Shown here piece after piece: positions 11-4,680 of a stretch of DNA of 24,608 nucleotides. The stretch spans positions 1 to 24,608 of the IMG/VR virus record IMGVR_UViG_3300044700_000088, one strand, 5' to 3'. This stretch comes from a virus. Every line of letters starts with the position of its first letter. The first letter of the stretch is position 1. Both the position numbers and the translations under genes were made by a program. Under the pieces are notes generated by a model that was not told the origin of the DNA, did not search any database, and saw only the letters and a program-made list of their open reading frames with translations.

Positions 11-196
11 TTAAGAAGAAATACCGTAGTTCTTTAAGGTTGCCGTTTCTTTTGCGTCTAACCATTTTCCAAAAGCACTCATTTCTTTGTTAACCATATT
101 TCTTTTACCGCACATGATACAAAATAGCTCTATGTGTAGCTTCTGAGAAAAAACTCTATCTACGAAAACTCTACCTCCGCATTTGCCACACCACAT
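11..196 (-). CDS. Small zinc-ribbon protein
   Basis: This 61-residue protein has two CxxC knuckles, C3-G-K-C6 near the N terminus and C26-I-M-C29 about 20 residues later, the spacing of a small zinc ribbon. The rest is a basic, mostly helical tail. Zinc ribbons of this size in phages may bind nucleic acid or a protein partner, but nothing here fixes the role. The ATG at 196 shares one base with the TAA of the upstream phosphoesterase (TAATG), so the two are probably translated together. No separate ribosome-binding site is visible. The zinc-ribbon call is secure from the cysteine pattern; a link to transcription or to the phosphoesterase is only inference from adjacency. Confidence 0.7.
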   Translation of the reverse strand: MWCGKCGGRVFVDRVFSQKLHIELFCIMCGKRNMVNKEMSAFGKWLDAKETATLKNYGISS

Positions 197-996
197 TATA
201 AAGTAAATACCTTTCCATCAACTACGCATGAGTAGTCTGGTGCAATATGAATCATTTGAATATGCGGATAGTCATTTACTATATGGGCAACGGCAAATCC
301 CTTTTGCCAATCGTGGTGCTGGCTATATTTCATTCCATCACTCTTTTCATCACACATATGTCCAATTTCATAGCCACGAAGGGTTTCTCCTTCTCCGCCG
401 TTTCTAAGTTCATATGTTACCATATGTGAGGCAATTCTGTGTGAGTGTCCACGAATAAGGGAAACCTGTAGGTCTTCCATATCTTTTCTTACTGCGCCTG
501 TGGCAGAAATAGAAAGTCCGTGGTGTACGTGAATATCTCCAAAGCGACGCTTTGGCAATTCATTATAATAGATGTATTCATATCCCAATGAGTCCAAGCT
601 CCAGAGTGACTCTGGTGTAACTTCGGTAATATAATCAGGAAGCTTTGCGTCTACGTAATTAAATACTCGTATGTCGTGGTTTCCTAATGCAGAAAATAGT
701 TGAGCATCTGGAAGCATCTCTCTTGTCTTTGCATAAAAATCTCTTGCGCCCTTTGCTTCATGTCGCATCATCGGAATAATAAGATCTTTACTATCAGTCT
801 TATGATAATTTAAAAACTCTGCTGATCTTCCCTCTGTATACTTGCTGTAGCAGGCTTGATCGTCTGTGTCTCCGAGGTAGTCCACAACATCTGGCTTAAA
901 CCACTTCATTACTTTAAACCATAGGGCAATCATCTTATCATCTTGATACGGGAACTGCTGATCGGATGATAACATCCACTTTAAATCGTTGCTCAT
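196..996 (-). CDS. Calcineurin-like metallophosphoesterase
   Basis: This 266-residue protein carries the ordered metal-binding motifs of the calcineurin-like phosphoesterase superfamily: S-D-Q-Q near residue 12, G-D-T-D-D near 42-46, G-N-H-D near 106-109, an H-H-G near 158 and G-H-S-H-R near 183. The first motif is normally D-x-H; here glutamine stands in the histidine position. The protein probably hydrolyses phosphodiester or phosphomonoester bonds with a two-metal centre, but the substrate (DNA, nucleotide or RNA 2',3'-cyclic end) cannot be read from sequence. The ATG at 996 has an AAGGT-type ribosome-binding site five bases upstream. It is the first gene after the tail-module terminator and has its own candidate promoter, so it probably opens a non-structural block. 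No signal peptide is seen. Confidence 0.85.
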   Translation of the reverse strand: MSNDLKWMLSSDQQFPYQDDKMIALWFKVMKWFKPDVVDYLGDTDDQACYSKYTEGRSAEFLNYHKTDSKDLIIPMMRHEAKGARDFYAKTREMLPDAQLFSALGNHDIRVFNYVDAKLPDYITEVTPESLWSLDSLGYEYIYYNELPKRRFGDIHVHHGLSISATGAVRKDMEDLQVSLIRGHSHRIASHMVTYELRNGGEGETLRGYEIGHMCDEKSDGMKYSQHHDWQKGFAVAHIVNDYPHIQMIHIAPDYSCVVDGKVFTL

Positions 997-1080: not shown

Positions 1081-1500
1081 CTAGGAGTGCTGAATTACCA
1101 AGAAATAAAACTGAGTACTTCCAGCGGTGTAGCCAGTCGGCTGATAAACCTTGCACATTGCTGTCGTGCTACTAACTGAGCTTTTTACAACGTGGGCTTC
1201 ATTATGAGATAGTCCAGCTTCACGAACGGGGGTCAATGTAATAGATTTAGGTGCTGACGTCAGCTTAGCTCCACTATAATTAATTGTAAAGGTAGAAGTT
1301 TTTCCTGGGTTTAATTGAACCGTCCCTGAAATCCCACCAAATATTTGTGGGACAACCACAGTTCCAATAGTCGAATTATCAATTGCAATATTTGTAGTAG
1401 AGGATCCAAATTGAGGAACCTTTGCTTTTATCTCTGCAAGAGATGTTTCTAGCGCACCGAGTTTAGCGGCGTCAATAGGTTCTCCATCATTAAATGCCAT
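1081..1500 (-). CDS. Small phage structural protein, possible tail tip or fibre accessory
   Basis: This 139-residue protein is not recognised by family. Residues 1-35 look helical (the stretch D-A-A-K-L-G-A-L-E-T and following). The rest alternates short beta strands rich in T, S, V and G and ends in a hydrophobic strand (F-Y-F-L-V-I-Q). A short N-terminal helix followed by a beta domain is common in trimeric fibre or tail-tip accessory proteins, so a structural role is likely but inferred. The ATG at 1500 is preceded by GGAGA, and the stop codon of the upstream 57-residue gene (TAG) is built into that ribosome-binding site. It is the last gene before the tail-module terminator. Confidence 0.6.
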   Translation of the reverse strand: MAFNDGEPIDAAKLGALETSLAEIKAKVPQFGSSTTNIAIDNSTIGTVVVPQIFGGISGTVQLNPGKTSTFTINYSGAKLTSAPKSITLTPVREAGLSHNEAHVVKSSVSSTTAMCKVYQPTGYTAGSTQFYFLVIQHS

Positions 1501-1511
1501 TACATTTTCTC

Positions 1512-1685
1512 CTATGCTGGTAAAGAATCTTCATAATTCTTTATTGCTTTTTCTTTGTCTTCTTTATCTTGTGATAACTGTGTTAGCTCTGCACGTAATA
1601 TTGCAATTTGTGTCTCATAGTTTGAGACAATTTCGCCAATGCGTTGTTGTAACGCAGTTATAATTAATTCGGCTTTATCTGCCAT
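1512..1685 (-). CDS. 57-residue coiled-coil protein
   Basis: A short gene that minimum-length filters would miss. It reads M-A-D-K-A-E-L-I-I-T at the start and ends Y-E-D-S-L-P-A before TAG. The middle (residues 8-50) is a continuous charged helix with heptad spacing of I, L and A, for example I-A-I-L-R-A-E-L-T-Q-L. No membrane segment or cysteine is present. It starts nine bases after the preceding 75-residue gene, with only a weak AGGG ribosome-binding site, and its stop overlaps the GGAGA site of the next gene. The function is unknown; a fibre chaperone or a small coiled-coil virion component are the reasonable guesses. The real-gene call rests on tight packing and amino-acid composition. 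Confidence 0.7.
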   Translation of the reverse strand: MADKAELIITALQQRIGEIVSNYETQIAILRAELTQLSQDKEDKEKAIKNYEDSLPA

Positions 1686-1693
1686 TTTAAACC

Positions 1694-1921
1694 CTATTCT
1701 GCTAAAGCGTTGACTGCTGTTAACTCTGTGTTAAGAGCTGTAATTTGTCCTTGGATATCTTCTATCTGGATTTGAAATGCGGTAATGCTGGATGCTACTG
1801 GGGTAGACTTTGCATTTTCCTGCAAAATGTCTATCTCTAGGTTGTACTTGGTATAAGACAGACTTTTAATATGATTGTTAATAATCTGAGCTTTTTCTTC
1901 TTTAGTTAGTTGAATTGTCAT
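1694..1921 (-). CDS. 75-residue coiled-coil protein
   Basis: This small protein of 75 residues is predicted to be nearly all helical: a lysine/glutamate-rich start (L-T-K-E-E-K-A-Q-I-I), then heptad-like I/L spacing through to the C terminus (I-T-A-L-N-T-E-L-T-A-V). There are no membrane segments. The ATG at 1921 has one of the strongest ribosome-binding sites in the window, AAAGGAGG with a six-base spacer, and its own extended -10 promoter (1939-1966). The gene and its two small neighbours could therefore be made in excess over the fibres. It resembles its 57-residue neighbour in style but not clearly in sequence. The function is unknown. Confidence 0.75.
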   Translation of the reverse strand: MTIQLTKEEKAQIINNHIKSLSYTKYNLEIDILQENAKSTPVASSITAFQIQIEDIQGQITALNTELTAVNALAE

Positions 1922-1938
1922 TTTTGTCCTCCTTTCAT

Positions 1939-1966
1939 ATTATAGCATTATTTTTCAAGATAGCAA
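1939..1966 (-). promoter_or_regulatory. Extended -10 promoter for the small coiled-coil genes
   Basis: TATAAT on the minus strand (1939-1944) is preceded by ATGC, giving the extended -10 form TGnTATAAT. A TTGCTA -35 (1961-1966) sits 16 bases upstream. The predicted start near 1932 would place the 5' end directly at the AAGGAGG ribosome-binding site, a leader of about 11 bases. The -35 lies inside the end of the upstream 87/88-residue gene. Confidence 0.6.
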
Positions 1967-2218
1967 GTGTTTTTCTATATTGTCTGGAAGATTAGATTCT
2001 GGGGTTACGCCTATCTGTGCAAACAGATGGTTTCTTGATTGTATGAGATACTTCATATTATCGTTTGCCGCTTTTAAATCAGGTCTCTCATCTTCCCCCT
2101 CTATGCTGGGATCTGCAATAGACCTAAGTATATTATTAATATCTATCATCGCAGACCTTTGCAAATCTTCAATTACTCTAATTTGGCCTATTACTTCTTT
2201 TTCTAATTCAGTAAACAT
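1955..2218 (-). CDS. Small helical protein downstream of tail fibre
   Basis: The product has 87 residues from the second of two adjacent ATG codons. I prefer 2218 because GGAG lies only one base from the first ATG (2221) but four bases from the second. The protein is mostly helical and charged, with two helices (roughly 2-35 and 48-70) around a D/E/P-rich turn (S-I-E-G-E-D-E-R-P). No family is recognised. The fibre gene's TAA is the first part of the TAAGGAGA ribosome-binding sequence, so the two genes are translationally linked. Small proteins directly after phage fibre genes are often assembly chaperones, but this is inference only. Confidence 0.7.
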   Translation of the reverse strand: MFTELEKEVIGQIRVIEDLQRSAMIDINNILRSIADPSIEGEDERPDLKAANDNMKYLIQSRNHLFAQIGVTPESNLPDNIEKHLLS

Positions 2219-2226
2219 CATTCTCC

Positions 2227-4680
2227 TTATGCTGGGTTAACGTTGGTTGAGTTTTCTGTATATGCACCCTCATCGGAGCTTCCTACCGTGTACCTATAAA
2301 CAGAATAATTAGAGTCATACGAAACTCCCTGTACTCCAAACCTGTAGGATGTTCCAGTAAGCGAGGTATAAATATCAGATTTTGGAGTTTCGGAATATAG
2401 AGAGTGTTTTGCAGTTGCTCCAGAAGATGTATTTCTAATTCTTGTGTTCCACCACTGAAATGTTCCTCCAGATCTTGTGCTTGTCCAAGTTCCAGTTATC
2501 TGCCTTGTTGCTGTTTTTGAAGCAGACACTGTGCCAATTGTAAAAGTTGCAGGAGCAGGTGCAGCTGAAGTTGTTAAGCTATAGTTTGCGGAAGCCGTAT
2601 TGTTAGTAGATGATGTTACAGTAACTGTTCCTGTATAAGTAGTTGAAGCAGTAAGTCCAGTTTTAGAAATAGAAGTACCAGTTGTTCCAGTTCCACTAAA
2701 TGTTCCAGTTGCACTAAAGCTTGCTTGATTTGTAGATGTCCAGTTAATTGTACCTGTAGATGCAGAAACTCCAGAGTTTGCGGCCATTGTTATAGTTGGT
2801 ATTACAGCTGAATCAGTAGTTGTTATACTATAGTTAGCTGATGCAGTATGGCCAGTGGATGATGTAACGGTAACAGTTCCAGTATAGGTAGTTAAAGCAG
2901 ACAGACCTGTTTTTGATATTGACGTTCCAGTTGTTCCAGTTGCACTAAATGTTCCAGTGGAGCTAAAACTTGCCTGGTTTGTTGATGTCCAGTTGATTGT
3001 ACCTGCTGAAGGTGATATGCCAGTATTTCCGCCCATTGTTATTGTTGGTATTACTGGCGGAGTGGTCATGTTGAAAGCAATACCATTACTCCAGGCACTT
3101 GCTACACTAGAAGGGCCAACAGAGGTGTCTGTTTCTGTTTGGACAGACCTAACATACATGTACTGTGTTGCTGTTGATGATGGTCCAGTAGGATCTATTA
3201 AAGGGCTAAATGAACGAGTAGCATCTGGCGTGACAGCAGTTGTTGGGGCTGTTGCTGTACCCCACCAAAACATTTGATAGAAGGGGCCAGAGCCTCCAGT
3301 AAAGTTAGCAGAAACTGAACCTCCTGTATCGCTTACGGATACAGAGTTTAACGTAGGTGCACTTAATACAGGAGCCTGCTGATTTGCGGAAGTCACTACT
3401 GATGTAAAGCTATCGTCTATTTCTGAAGATGAAATATTTTTCCATAATGTATCTGCTATTGGAGTCCAAGTAAACGCCGATTGGCTGCCAGTAGCTCCAT
3501 TAAAATATGATCTTAAAACTGATCCTGCTCCCCAAGCATATGGTCCAGGAATTCCAGCATATCCAGTAAATCCGCTACTATAATAACCTGGACCCTCTGT
3601 TTGAATCGGAACTGAAGATCCTTTTCTTGCTATATAAATATCACAATAAGGCTGTCCTGTATAAAATTTAATTTGGTAATCTACTGCATTTGCTGCTGCT
3701 CTTACTAATGGTGATTGATAATTATAAGATCTAAAGTATAAATAATAATTACTGCTATCAGAATATTCTTGAAGCCTATATTGAACTAAATCATTACTAT
3801 ATATATTTATAATTCTTCCAGACCCTGGGCTTGCAGCAGTACTTCCGCCACTGTCTAATCCTATATATCCATTGGAACCAACATATAAAGTATTGCCAAA
3901 ACTAAAGGCATATGTTGATGTGACGGTTCCAGATGACGTGTATCCAGTTGTATCAGACCCACCGCTGTTTGTTCCAGTAACTCGTACCCTAATTACTTTA
4001 CCTAAATCACCAGGAACTATTGTATACGCATTGCTATTAGTTGAATTAAATGCAGTAGACTGTCTAATTGTTCCATCTGAGTAGCTCCACTCATACTCAA
4101 AAGTGGACGGAGAAGTATCTCCAGTTATTGTTGTCGTGCCTTTCCAAGTTCCTATTTGCTCAAATGCTGTTAGCGTTCCTCCAACTATAGCCACTCCAGA
4201 AAGACTATACGTGCTTAAAGCAACTGGTGTATATTTTGTTATTAAATATTCATATGATTGTGCTGTTGTTGACCCACTTAAATTTGTTGCTGTAACTCTT
4301 ACGCAAACAAATTTATTATCATCTGAATCAGTTGTAGTATATGTTGAAGATGTAGCACCAGATATAGCACTAAAAGCTCCAGCTACTCCATTAATATTGC
4401 TTGCCCTTTGCCATTGTCTTGCATAGCTATTTGTTCCATTGGGAGACGTCCACGAACCAAGCGATCCCGTTAGCGTTCCATATAATTTTGTACTTCCAGT
4501 GACGTCGGGTGGGACAGTATTTGCTGGTACTAAAATTCTTGTAAACACTCTTGTCCATGTGGTTGATCCAGTTTTAACCCAGGCTCCCAACAGTTCAGTC
4601 CATGTTGTGCTACCTGTTTTAACAAAAATAGAATTAATTTTTGTCCAGGCAGCGCTTCCAGTTTTCGTAAATACAGTCAT
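2227..4680 (-). CDS. Large modular tail fibre/adhesin with Ig-like repeats
   Basis: An 817-residue structural protein, very rich in T, S, G and N, with almost no charged core. Residues 4-48 hold three 15-residue units of the form K-T-G-S-x-x-W-T, like the short K-x-G-x-W repeats of other phage tail proteins. Two Ig-like domains follow (about 53-150 and 150-255), with the N/D-x-G-x-x-I/F-x-V-R-V-T-x-T-N signature. Next is a lectin- or nidogen-like region (255-430) containing V-G-S-N-G-Y-I, then an FN3-like unit (435-540), two tandem 83-residue Ig-like repeats (543-708) and a C-terminal domain with W-W and Y clusters. It probably binds the cell surface. The ATG lies four bases after the TGA of the 883-residue gene and has no clear ribosome-binding site, so translation is probably coupled. 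Confidence 0.8.
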   Translation of the reverse strand: MTVFTKTGSAAWTKINSIFVKTGSTTWTELLGAWVKTGSTTWTRVFTRILVPANTVPPDVTGSTKLYGTLTGSLGSWTSPNGTNSYARQWQRASNINGVAGAFSAISGATSSTYTTTDSDDNKFVCVRVTATNLSGSTTAQSYEYLITKYTPVALSTYSLSGVAIVGGTLTAFEQIGTWKGTTTITGDTSPSTFEYEWSYSDGTIRQSTAFNSTNSNAYTIVPGDLGKVIRVRVTGTNSGGSDTTGYTSSGTVTSTYAFSFGNTLYVGSNGYIGLDSGGSTAASPGSGRIINIYSNDLVQYRLQEYSDSSNYYLYFRSYNYQSPLVRAAANAVDYQIKFYTGQPYCDIYIARKGSSVPIQTEGPGYYSSGFTGYAGIPGPYAWGAGSVLRSYFNGATGSQSAFTWTPIADTLWKNISSSEIDDSFTSVVTSANQQAPVLSAPTLNSVSVSDTGGSVSANFTGGSGPFYQMFWWGTATAPTTAVTPDATRSFSPLIDPTGPSSTATQYMYVRSVQTETDTSVGPSSVASAWSNGIAFNMTTPPVIPTITMGGNTGISPSAGTINWTSTNQASFSSTGTFSATGTTGTSISKTGLSALTTYTGTVTVTSSTGHTASANYSITTTDSAVIPTITMAANSGVSASTGTINWTSTNQASFSATGTFSGTGTTGTSISKTGLTASTTYTGTVTVTSSTNNTASANYSLTTSAAPAPATFTIGTVSASKTATRQITGTWTSTRSGGTFQWWNTRIRNTSSGATAKHSLYSETPKSDIYTSLTGTSYRFGVQGVSYDSNYSVYRYTVGSSDEGAYTENSTNVNPA
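2557..3054 (-). repeat. Two tandem 249-bp (83-residue) Ig-like repeats
   Basis: The two units are 2806-3054 and 2557-2805. Each begins V-I-P-T-I-T-M and contains T-I-N-W-T-S-T-N-Q-A-S-F near its start and T-Y-T-G-T-V-T-V-T-S-S-T near its end. The period is exactly 249 bases with no indel, and protein identity is high by eye. The S/T-N-x-x-S pattern with a downstream T-V-T-V strand is typical of bacterial Ig-like adhesin modules. Confidence 0.9.
4537..4671 (-). repeat. Three 45-bp N-terminal K-T-G-S-x-x-W-T repeats
   Basis: Three perfectly phased 15-residue units in the 817-residue fibre: F-T-K-T-G-S-A-A-W-T, F-V-K-T-G-S-T-T-W-T and W-V-K-T-G-S-T-T-W-T, each followed by five variable residues. 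Phage tail proteins often carry similar K-x-G-x-W units, which may pack as small beta hairpins. Confidence 0.85.

Follow-up and report, generated by a model that had tools for sequence, protein, structure and literature searches.

A small helical protein encoded behind a phage tail fibre varies with the fibre's C-terminal end: a candidate end-specific chaperone or cap

Introduction

Tail-fibre ends usually decide which bacteria a phage infects. A question of general interest is how a fibre end that has been swapped can still fold and assemble. A virus genome fragment in which three very small genes follow the tail fibre raises this question in a concrete form: what do these genes do, and does any of them belong to the fibre end? 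The window analysed here, a linear virus record of 24,608 bases, carries on its minus strand the order fibre (817 aa), A (87 aa), B (75 aa), C (57 aa), D (139 aa) and metallophosphoesterase (MPE). The features used below are as follows.

2227 to 4680, minus strand: tail fibre, 817 aa
2227 to 2469, minus strand: last 80 fibre residues and stop codon, the portion tracked by A
1955 to 2218, minus strand: gene A, 87 aa (88 if started at the ATG at 2221), predicted helical hairpin; its type tracks the fibre C-terminal end
1939 to 1966, minus strand: promoter-like site of B, TTGCTA-16 nt-TATAAT, with the -10 box at a near-fixed distance from the B start in set 1
1949, minus strand: point at which DNA homology with locus L003 resumes, 28 nt before the B start
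1928 to 1936, minus strand: ribosome-binding site of B, GAAAGGAGG, the longest among those examined in the window
1694 to 1921, minus strand: gene B, 75 aa, predicted helical hairpin; tracks the fibre N-terminal part
1512 to 1685, minus strand: gene C, 57 aa, PHROG 10610, containing LQQRIGEIVSNYE; also in Streptomyces phages
1081 to 1500, minus strand: gene D, 139 aa, a small fibre-like protein by eye; next gene downstream
196 to 996, minus strand: MPE, PHROG 221, used as lineage marker and synteny anchor

Matches to the MPE are found in phages of Mycobacterium, Streptomyces, Rhodococcus and a few other actinobacteria, the best being in Rhodococcus phages, and the host is therefore probably actinobacterial. 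The phage group is widespread and uncultured. A second promoter-like site (TTGACA-16-TACAAT, 11 of 12 positions) lies on the minus strand at 1051-1078, between D and the MPE.

Loci and methods

Relatives of A in IMG/VR were found at two loci by a single-protein search and at eight by a wider profile. B had relatives at 55 loci, while C matched 316 IMG/VR stretches by one profile and at least 551 and at least 541 by two others, in overlapping sets. At most 80 C-matching stretches were taken on from each of these last two profiles, and 162 distinct loci were compared in two separately fetched sets.

Set 1 comprised 103 dereplicated loci, three of them without a fibre; 95 of the other 100 were used, four Streptomyces loci and L074 being left out. 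For the comparison of A with the fibre end, 60 of the 95 were available (19 were without A by that filter and 16 had a Cys-rich small protein); a looser filter, which admitted proteins of up to 150 aa, some of them non-helical, retained 75 of the 95. A was present in L093 and L100 and absent from L045 and L144. Set 2 was fetched with other C profiles, and 67 of its 150 loci were used, 53 of them with A; left out were 34 loci that set 1 contained already, 31 duplicates, 16 lacking B and two lacking a fibre. Cleaning of set 2 removed eight of the 53, namely seven with a non-helical-looking LHTDER protein and L300, which has a different small protein of non-helical appearance. The combined set consisted of 90 of the 162 loci (A present and a complete fibre of at least 600 aa), or 84 after dereplication.

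Covariation was expressed as the correlation of pairwise similarity matrices, with partial Mantel tests and permutations. Set 1 had already been seen when the similarity cut-offs (0.28, 0.45, 0.6 and others) and the fibre segments were selected; the test of A against the fibre end was fixed before set 2 was fetched.

Three conserved small genes

The initial annotation had described three consecutive tiny open reading frames of 87, 75 and 57 codons between the fibre and the last tail gene, all helical and unlike holins, and the three frames were found, on the minus strand. A, B and C are real, conserved genes under purifying selection: the frames are kept in relatives, and dN was smaller than dS in every pair computed for them. 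For example, dN and dS were 0.129 and 1.31 for A between the window and L001, and between the window and L003 they were 0.044 and 0.69 for B and 0.049 and 0.42 for C; synonymous sites are near saturation in the most distant B pairs, so that dN/dS says less there. No membrane segment of the kind expected of a holin or spanin was seen in A, B or C by 19-residue Kyte-Doolittle hydropathy, the highest means being 0.56, 0.62 and 0.43, respectively. The similarity of C to an Rz-like spanin profile is weak (E 0.028). No fusion of A, B or C to a protein longer than 110 aa was found in the set-1 loci.

The typical set-1 locus reads fibre, A-slot, B, C, D and MPE. B and C are nearly constant across these loci; the A-slot holds many different small proteins or is empty. 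It had also been suggested that the three proteins form one coiled-coil complex or act together in fibre folding. Among 59 set-1 loci dereplicated by fibre end, however, A, B and C varied largely independently of one another (r 0.13 for A-B, 0.02 for A-C and 0.36 for B-C). Since each gene tracks a different part of the neighbourhood, a single three-protein complex is unsupported. The part of the suggestion that concerned fibre folding fared better: for A, folding or assembly of the fibre is the reading with the best support, and for B it is plausible.

Gene A tracks the C-terminal end of the fibre

Similarity of A followed similarity of the last 80 fibre residues in set 1 with r 0.80 (60 loci), and the partial correlation given the MPE and C was 0.83 (56 loci), a value reached in 0 of 2000 permutations. 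After dereplication by fibre end under the looser A filter, r was 0.65 for A (59 loci), and the same loci gave 0.13 for B, 0.05 for C, 0.12 for D and 0.07 for the MPE against the fibre end. The result was reproduced in set 2, where r was 0.74 (53 loci) and 0.62 after dereplication (45 loci). Cleaned set 2 gave 0.75 (45 loci), 0.59 after dereplication (38 loci) and a partial correlation given B and C of 0.74 (0 of 1000 permutations); in the combined set this partial correlation was 0.731 (0 of 1000).

The signal is concentrated at the very end of the fibre. Going upstream along the fibre in the 84 combined loci, the correlation with A fell from 0.73 for the last 80 residues to 0.48, 0.29, 0.26 and 0.18 (at -400), and it was 0.12 for residues 1-80. 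With the preceding 80 residues controlled, A and the last 80 residues were still correlated at 0.635, whereas the reverse comparison gave 0.109, a weak value though above all permutations.

Natural recombinants tell the same story. Among 140 pairs of loci with similar B and different fibre ends, A was common to three; among 66 pairs with a similar end and a different B and fibre N-terminal part, A was common to 51, against a background of 4.6%, although in both counts loci recur among the pairs, which are not independent observations. The window itself provides both kinds of pair: compared with L003, its similarity is 0.92 for B, 0.10 for the end and 0.09 for A, and compared with L001 it is 0.90 for the end, 0.82 for A and 0.39 for B.

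For clustering, 115 A-slot proteins from 110 of the 162 loci were grouped into 27 clusters, twelve of which had at least three members. Nine of these twelve were each confined to one fibre-end cluster (12 of 12 members, 11 of 11, 5 of 5, the window's own 4 of 4, another 4 of 4 and four of 3 of 3), and a tenth had six of its seven members in one. The window's A cluster comprises four loci plus three related ones. A clusters and end types do not pair off exactly: large A clusters of 27 and 16 proteins are spread across six and ten end types, some fibre-end types contain several A clusters, and 15 of the 66 pairs with the same end do not share A. In addition, L027, L035 and L037 have a protein of 140-143 aa directly behind the fibre that is A-like by eye, so that the A copy located farther away in these loci is weak evidence.

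These results suggested that A, which changes mainly with the fibre end, probably helps to build or cap that end.

Gene B tracks the N-terminal part of the fibre and may mark an exchange border

B is encoded closer to the 3' end than to the 5' end of the fibre gene, yet it tracks the N-terminal part of the fibre. In the combined set, B correlated with fibre residues 81-240 at r 0.51-0.55 (0.55 for residues 161-240) and with the last 80 residues at 0.10. Given A and C, the partial correlation of B with the end was -0.002 (536 of 1000 permutations as high) and that with residues 1-80 was 0.337 (0 of 1000). The latter fell to 0.188 once the end of the upstream gene was also controlled, and part of the tie between B and the N-terminal part may thus reflect shared descent of the tail backbone. 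For residues 161-240, a partial correlation of 0.422 (0 of 1000) remained with A, C, the MPE and the end of the upstream gene controlled. Set 2 gave 0.67 for B against the first 120 residues and 0.35 against the end (0.69 and 0.26 after cleaning), and the partial correlations given A and C in cleaned set 2 were 0.592 (0 of 1000) and 0.106 (19 of 1000). In set 1, the corresponding values given the MPE and C were 0.45 and 0.27 (0 of 2000 for the end). Collectively, B is tied mainly, but not exclusively, to the N-terminal part of the fibre.

The claim that one of the three genes has its own promoter and the strongest ribosome-binding site was borne out for B as far as sequence signals go. B has the longest Shine-Dalgarno match, 9 nt, among 23 upstream stretches examined in the window (these include one gene with two starts and one with a wrong start, and the window's last gene was left out). 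A scan of the window for promoter-like sites, which found 43 compared to 39.2 in shuffled sequence, proves nothing by itself; it is conservation in relatives that supports the B site. The 60 nt preceding B contain TATAAT in 85 of 95 set-1 loci, with its first base 20-24 nt ahead of the start codon in 80, and GGAGG precedes B in 85 of 95. Before the other set-1 genes, TATAAT was found at 1 of 73 fibres, 15 of 64 A, 2 of 95 C, 1 of 86 D and 5 of 87 MPE genes. In 1.07 Mb, the plus strand carries 84 copies of the composite TATAAT-N2-10-GGAGG, of which 82 lie at B. In set 2, whose loci are more divergent, TATAAT precedes B in 31 of 67 loci, and the composite was found 30 times at B and once elsewhere per strand. 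The transcript predicted from this site would start about at the ribosome-binding site, which would be unusual.

The same site coincides with mosaic borders. In 115 pairs with a different end and A and a similar B, DNA homology over B begins at a median of 28 nt before its start (10-90% range, -52 to -21); between the window and L001, the shared block continues to 55 nt inside B. Because the homology blocks begin about at this promoter-like site of B, the promoter and leader region may serve both as a promoter and as an exchange border.

These borders also lend themselves to a simpler explanation, in which A only travels with the fibre end by lying between that end and the recombination-prone site at the B promoter. 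Adjacency alone can produce such figures: the C-terminus of the gene upstream of the fibre and fibre residues 1-80 are correlated at r 0.77 in the combined set, as strongly as A and the end, so that A could merely hitch-hike. Passive co-travel of this kind is nevertheless unlikely, as A is under purifying selection and other neighbouring pairs in the combined set are less correlated (A-B 0.12, B-C 0.38). Furthermore, occupancy of the A-slot depends on the type of end: it is filled at 107 of 126 ordinary ends but at 3 of 36 Cys/PPxF-rich ends (Fisher p 1.2e-17).

Predicted folds, paralogy and family searches

AlphaFold2 predicted helical hairpins for both A (helices 4-33 and 46-68, pLDDT 83.6, from 6 sequences) and B (helices 7-37 and 43-71, pLDDT 97.0, from 75 sequences), in agreement with the helical character noted initially. 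Six of the twelve larger A-slot clusters, with 73 of the 115 proteins, scored at least 95% against the B profile in hhalign, and four scored 39-75%. In controls, reversed B gave at most 8% for the A clusters, family C gave up to 65% (A3), and C against reversed B gave 26%; with control values up to 65%, only the six clusters at or above 95% count and scores of 39-75% prove nothing. By profile comparison, these six clusters are homologous to B. For the window's own A, hhalign gave no demonstrable homology to B (3% for its cluster, and 0.1%), and the related cluster A8 scored 0.4%; the window's A resembles the B family in predicted fold and in place. Several B-like genes stand in a row between the fibre and C in L106, and L226 has at least two A-slot genes, which suggests recent duplication in the family.

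It had been noted that the proteins do not look like obvious known chaperones, and profile searches, one of the checks proposed at the time, agree: no such family and no known unrelated family matched above its cut-off. A and B had no match above cut-off in Pfam, PHROGs or NCBIfam and no PHROG or Pfam match that named a fibre assembly protein (Tfa/gp38); the Tfa proteins of lambda and Mu are fibre assembly proteins grouped with T4 gp38. The window's A matched no PHROG or Pfam family up to E 1. The window's B had weak matches only, the best at 0.0068 to a family of unknown function and one at 0.036 to a tail needle profile. Among 75 B members there was no Pfam match, and three PHROGs without description were matched by one member each. 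In named phages, no tblastn match to A or B was found up to E 1, and fold searches with the A and B models in the PDB and with B in BFVD gave no match below E 0.1; fold hits such as those to prefoldin and EsxB were set aside as generic helical hairpins. Against solved sequences, the B profile had 25 matches up to E 1, of which the best three (3.8e-4, 0.0016 and 0.0051) were sc-apCC3 chains, names that suggest designed coiled coils, and others were keratin, tail needle gp26 and similar proteins. These were taken as generic coiled-coil similarity.

The predicted folds bear on two further readings of A. In the manner of the gp38 adhesin of T2-type phages, A could be a permanent virion component, either a small adhesin or a clamp for the trimer, that stays at the fibre end instead of departing like a chaperone. 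The same covariation with the end would be expected, and A is small, soluble and free of membrane segments. But A is predicted as a plain helical hairpin with no further domain, and an adhesin is less likely for the 73 of 115 A-slot proteins paralogous to B, as B tracks the other end of the fibre. This second argument fails for the window's own A, which has no demonstrated homology to B. On balance, a permanent virion protein appears rather unlikely. Alternatively, A might interfere with the receptor to exclude superinfecting phages, in which case A and the fibre end would covary by both matching the same receptor. This is very improbable for a protein with no membrane segment and, by eye, no signal peptide, in a slot many of whose proteins are paralogous to B with its tie to the fibre N-terminal part.

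Gene C

C is a conserved protein of the tail module. It belongs to PHROG 10610, of unknown function: ten of ten members of alignment A1 match this family, the best at 7.7e-25, and the window's C matches it over residues 1-36 only (9.1e-5). The C profile had five matches among solved sequences, the best at 0.15. In set 1 and in the combined set, C correlated best with the MPE (0.46 and 0.48), and in set 2 with B (0.59).

All 16 records matched by the window's C among named phages are Streptomyces phages, with E 3e-5 in one and 0.3-0.7 in the other fifteen; the weak scores are supported by the position of the gene, behind a long tail gene and before the MPE. The 57-aa gene had been called short enough to be missing from automatic annotation, which is not always so: in the isolated Streptomyces phages its homologues, among them Annadreamy gp42, are annotated "hypothetical protein". 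These phages have an extra gene of 134-148 aa behind C. A protein of about 135-150 aa following C, missing from the window, was noted in Streptomyces phages and in L004-type loci, with L004 (6288-6761) and gp43 of Annadreamy (L012, 8191-8598) as examples; the two share, by eye, similar GFRDGTLI and YLIS stretches and had no Pfam match up to E 0.01. A pattern-based scan of 84,980 prokaryote genomes for C yielded 87 fitting stretches, none of which encodes a relative, though distant relatives can escape such a search; there is thus no prophage evidence from C.

Fibre ends without A

The three small proteins in the A-slot of Cys/PPxF-rich ends look non-helical by eye. Among the 126 ordinary ends, a counted A is absent from 19; these include two of the 16 ends of one type and four of the six "PRWLKV" ends. 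Between the fibre and B, 29 of 36 loci of the Cys/PPxF type have a Zn-ribbon protein or an open reading frame of at least 180 aa, compared to 15 of 126 ordinary ones. Five such intervening genes were scanned against Pfam: L060 has a radical SAM/SPASM protein, L087 a 2OG-Fe(II) oxygenase and L110 a Zn-ribbon protein just below the DUF6171 cut-off, and L027, which has an ordinary end and A, has a GlcNAc glycosyltransferase (PF11397) and a DUF7164 protein. Modification-type genes were also seen by eye in L048, L050, L091 and others, where A would stand, behind Cys- or PPYF/PPFF-rich ends. Possibly, the fibre ends in such loci are enzymatically modified.

In L043, L076, L169, L186, L189, L192, L194, L227, L286 and L096, the gene behind the fibre encodes a different small protein that looks non-helical and carries DILHTDERL or DVLHTDERL as a motif; the fibre ends in ..LDNFSA, ..YDNLSI or similar in the first nine and in a Cys-rich stretch in L096.

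A proposed role for A and B

The explanation we favour, with a probability of roughly 0.55, is that A is an end-specific tail-fibre chaperone or cap and B a general fibre partner, with binding and chaperone activity as the presumed basis of the covariation; our confidence is limited to this level because genes lying side by side can co-travel without contact, as the value of 0.77 illustrates. A would be a small helical hairpin that binds the C-terminal end of the newly made fibre, most likely as an assembly chaperone or transient cap keeping the C-termini of the fibre chains together. That end is presumably the receptor-binding one. If A fits its own end type only, the fibre end and A would have to be exchanged between phages as one cassette, for which the promoter and leader of B would be the common right border. 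B, presumably made from its own promoter, would be the unchanging partner and serve the conserved N-terminal region of the same fibre.

A wider scheme can be put forward tentatively, as something possible but doubtful. Paralogous tiny helical hairpins might give each end of the fibre its own partner, a constant B at the N-terminal part and, at the receptor-binding end, an interchangeable protein from the A-slot, with the B promoter and leader as the standard cassette border; phages with Cys/Pro-rich ends might drop A and use modifying enzymes instead.

The proposed roles suggest a function for genes so far unlisted or called hypothetical. Most ordinary fibre-end types carry their own small partner, short enough for easy co-expression, and the small gene behind a fibre end should probably be included when such an end is produced in the laboratory. 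Furthermore, the many natural recombinants in this widespread, uncultured phage group provide a ready-made test.

Comparison with known systems

Among the matches listed from the open-access literature, outside which subscription journals and preprints largely or wholly fall, no description of the A/B family or of such a paired partner system was found, and the accessible parts of a paper on Planktophila phages (PMC10202952) do not mention such genes. A and B are set apart from gp38 by size, and from gp38 and Tfa by the absent profile match. The gene for T4 gp57A sits between genes 57B and 1, unlike A and B, which lie behind the fibre. No homology to T4 gp57A was found (hhalign 0.6% for B, 0.1% for A and 0.3% for C against the single T4 sequence).

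The logic of the T4 system is nevertheless similar. According to the accessible parts of PMC3004832, T4 employs a general fibre helper, gp57A, which serves gp12, gp34 and gp37, together with the gp37-specific gp38, and B and A would share this division into a general and a specific helper. gp57A (about 80 aa) resembles A and B in being of similar size, Cys-free and a helper of fibre assembly; A and B contain aromatics and prolines, which gp57A does not, and gp38, at 22.3 kDa, is much larger than either (PMC3004832).

Further parallels for A are found where the fibre and its own chaperone travel together. In the Alteromonas phages A5 and V22, they are shared as a host-recognition module, and the chaperone has a helical part and was proposed to be a transient cap (PMC10579305, accessible parts). 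The chaperone of cyanophage Pam3 also has a helical part and is described as embracing the distal fibre (PMC9608196, accessible parts). As far as these texts go, both kinds of chaperone have extra beta parts, whereas A and B are predicted as bare helical hairpins; for neither A5/V22 nor Pam3 do they describe a paralogue of the chaperone that serves the opposite fibre end. A shares one trait of cognate fibre chaperones: it is encoded beside the fibre and evolves with its C-terminal end.
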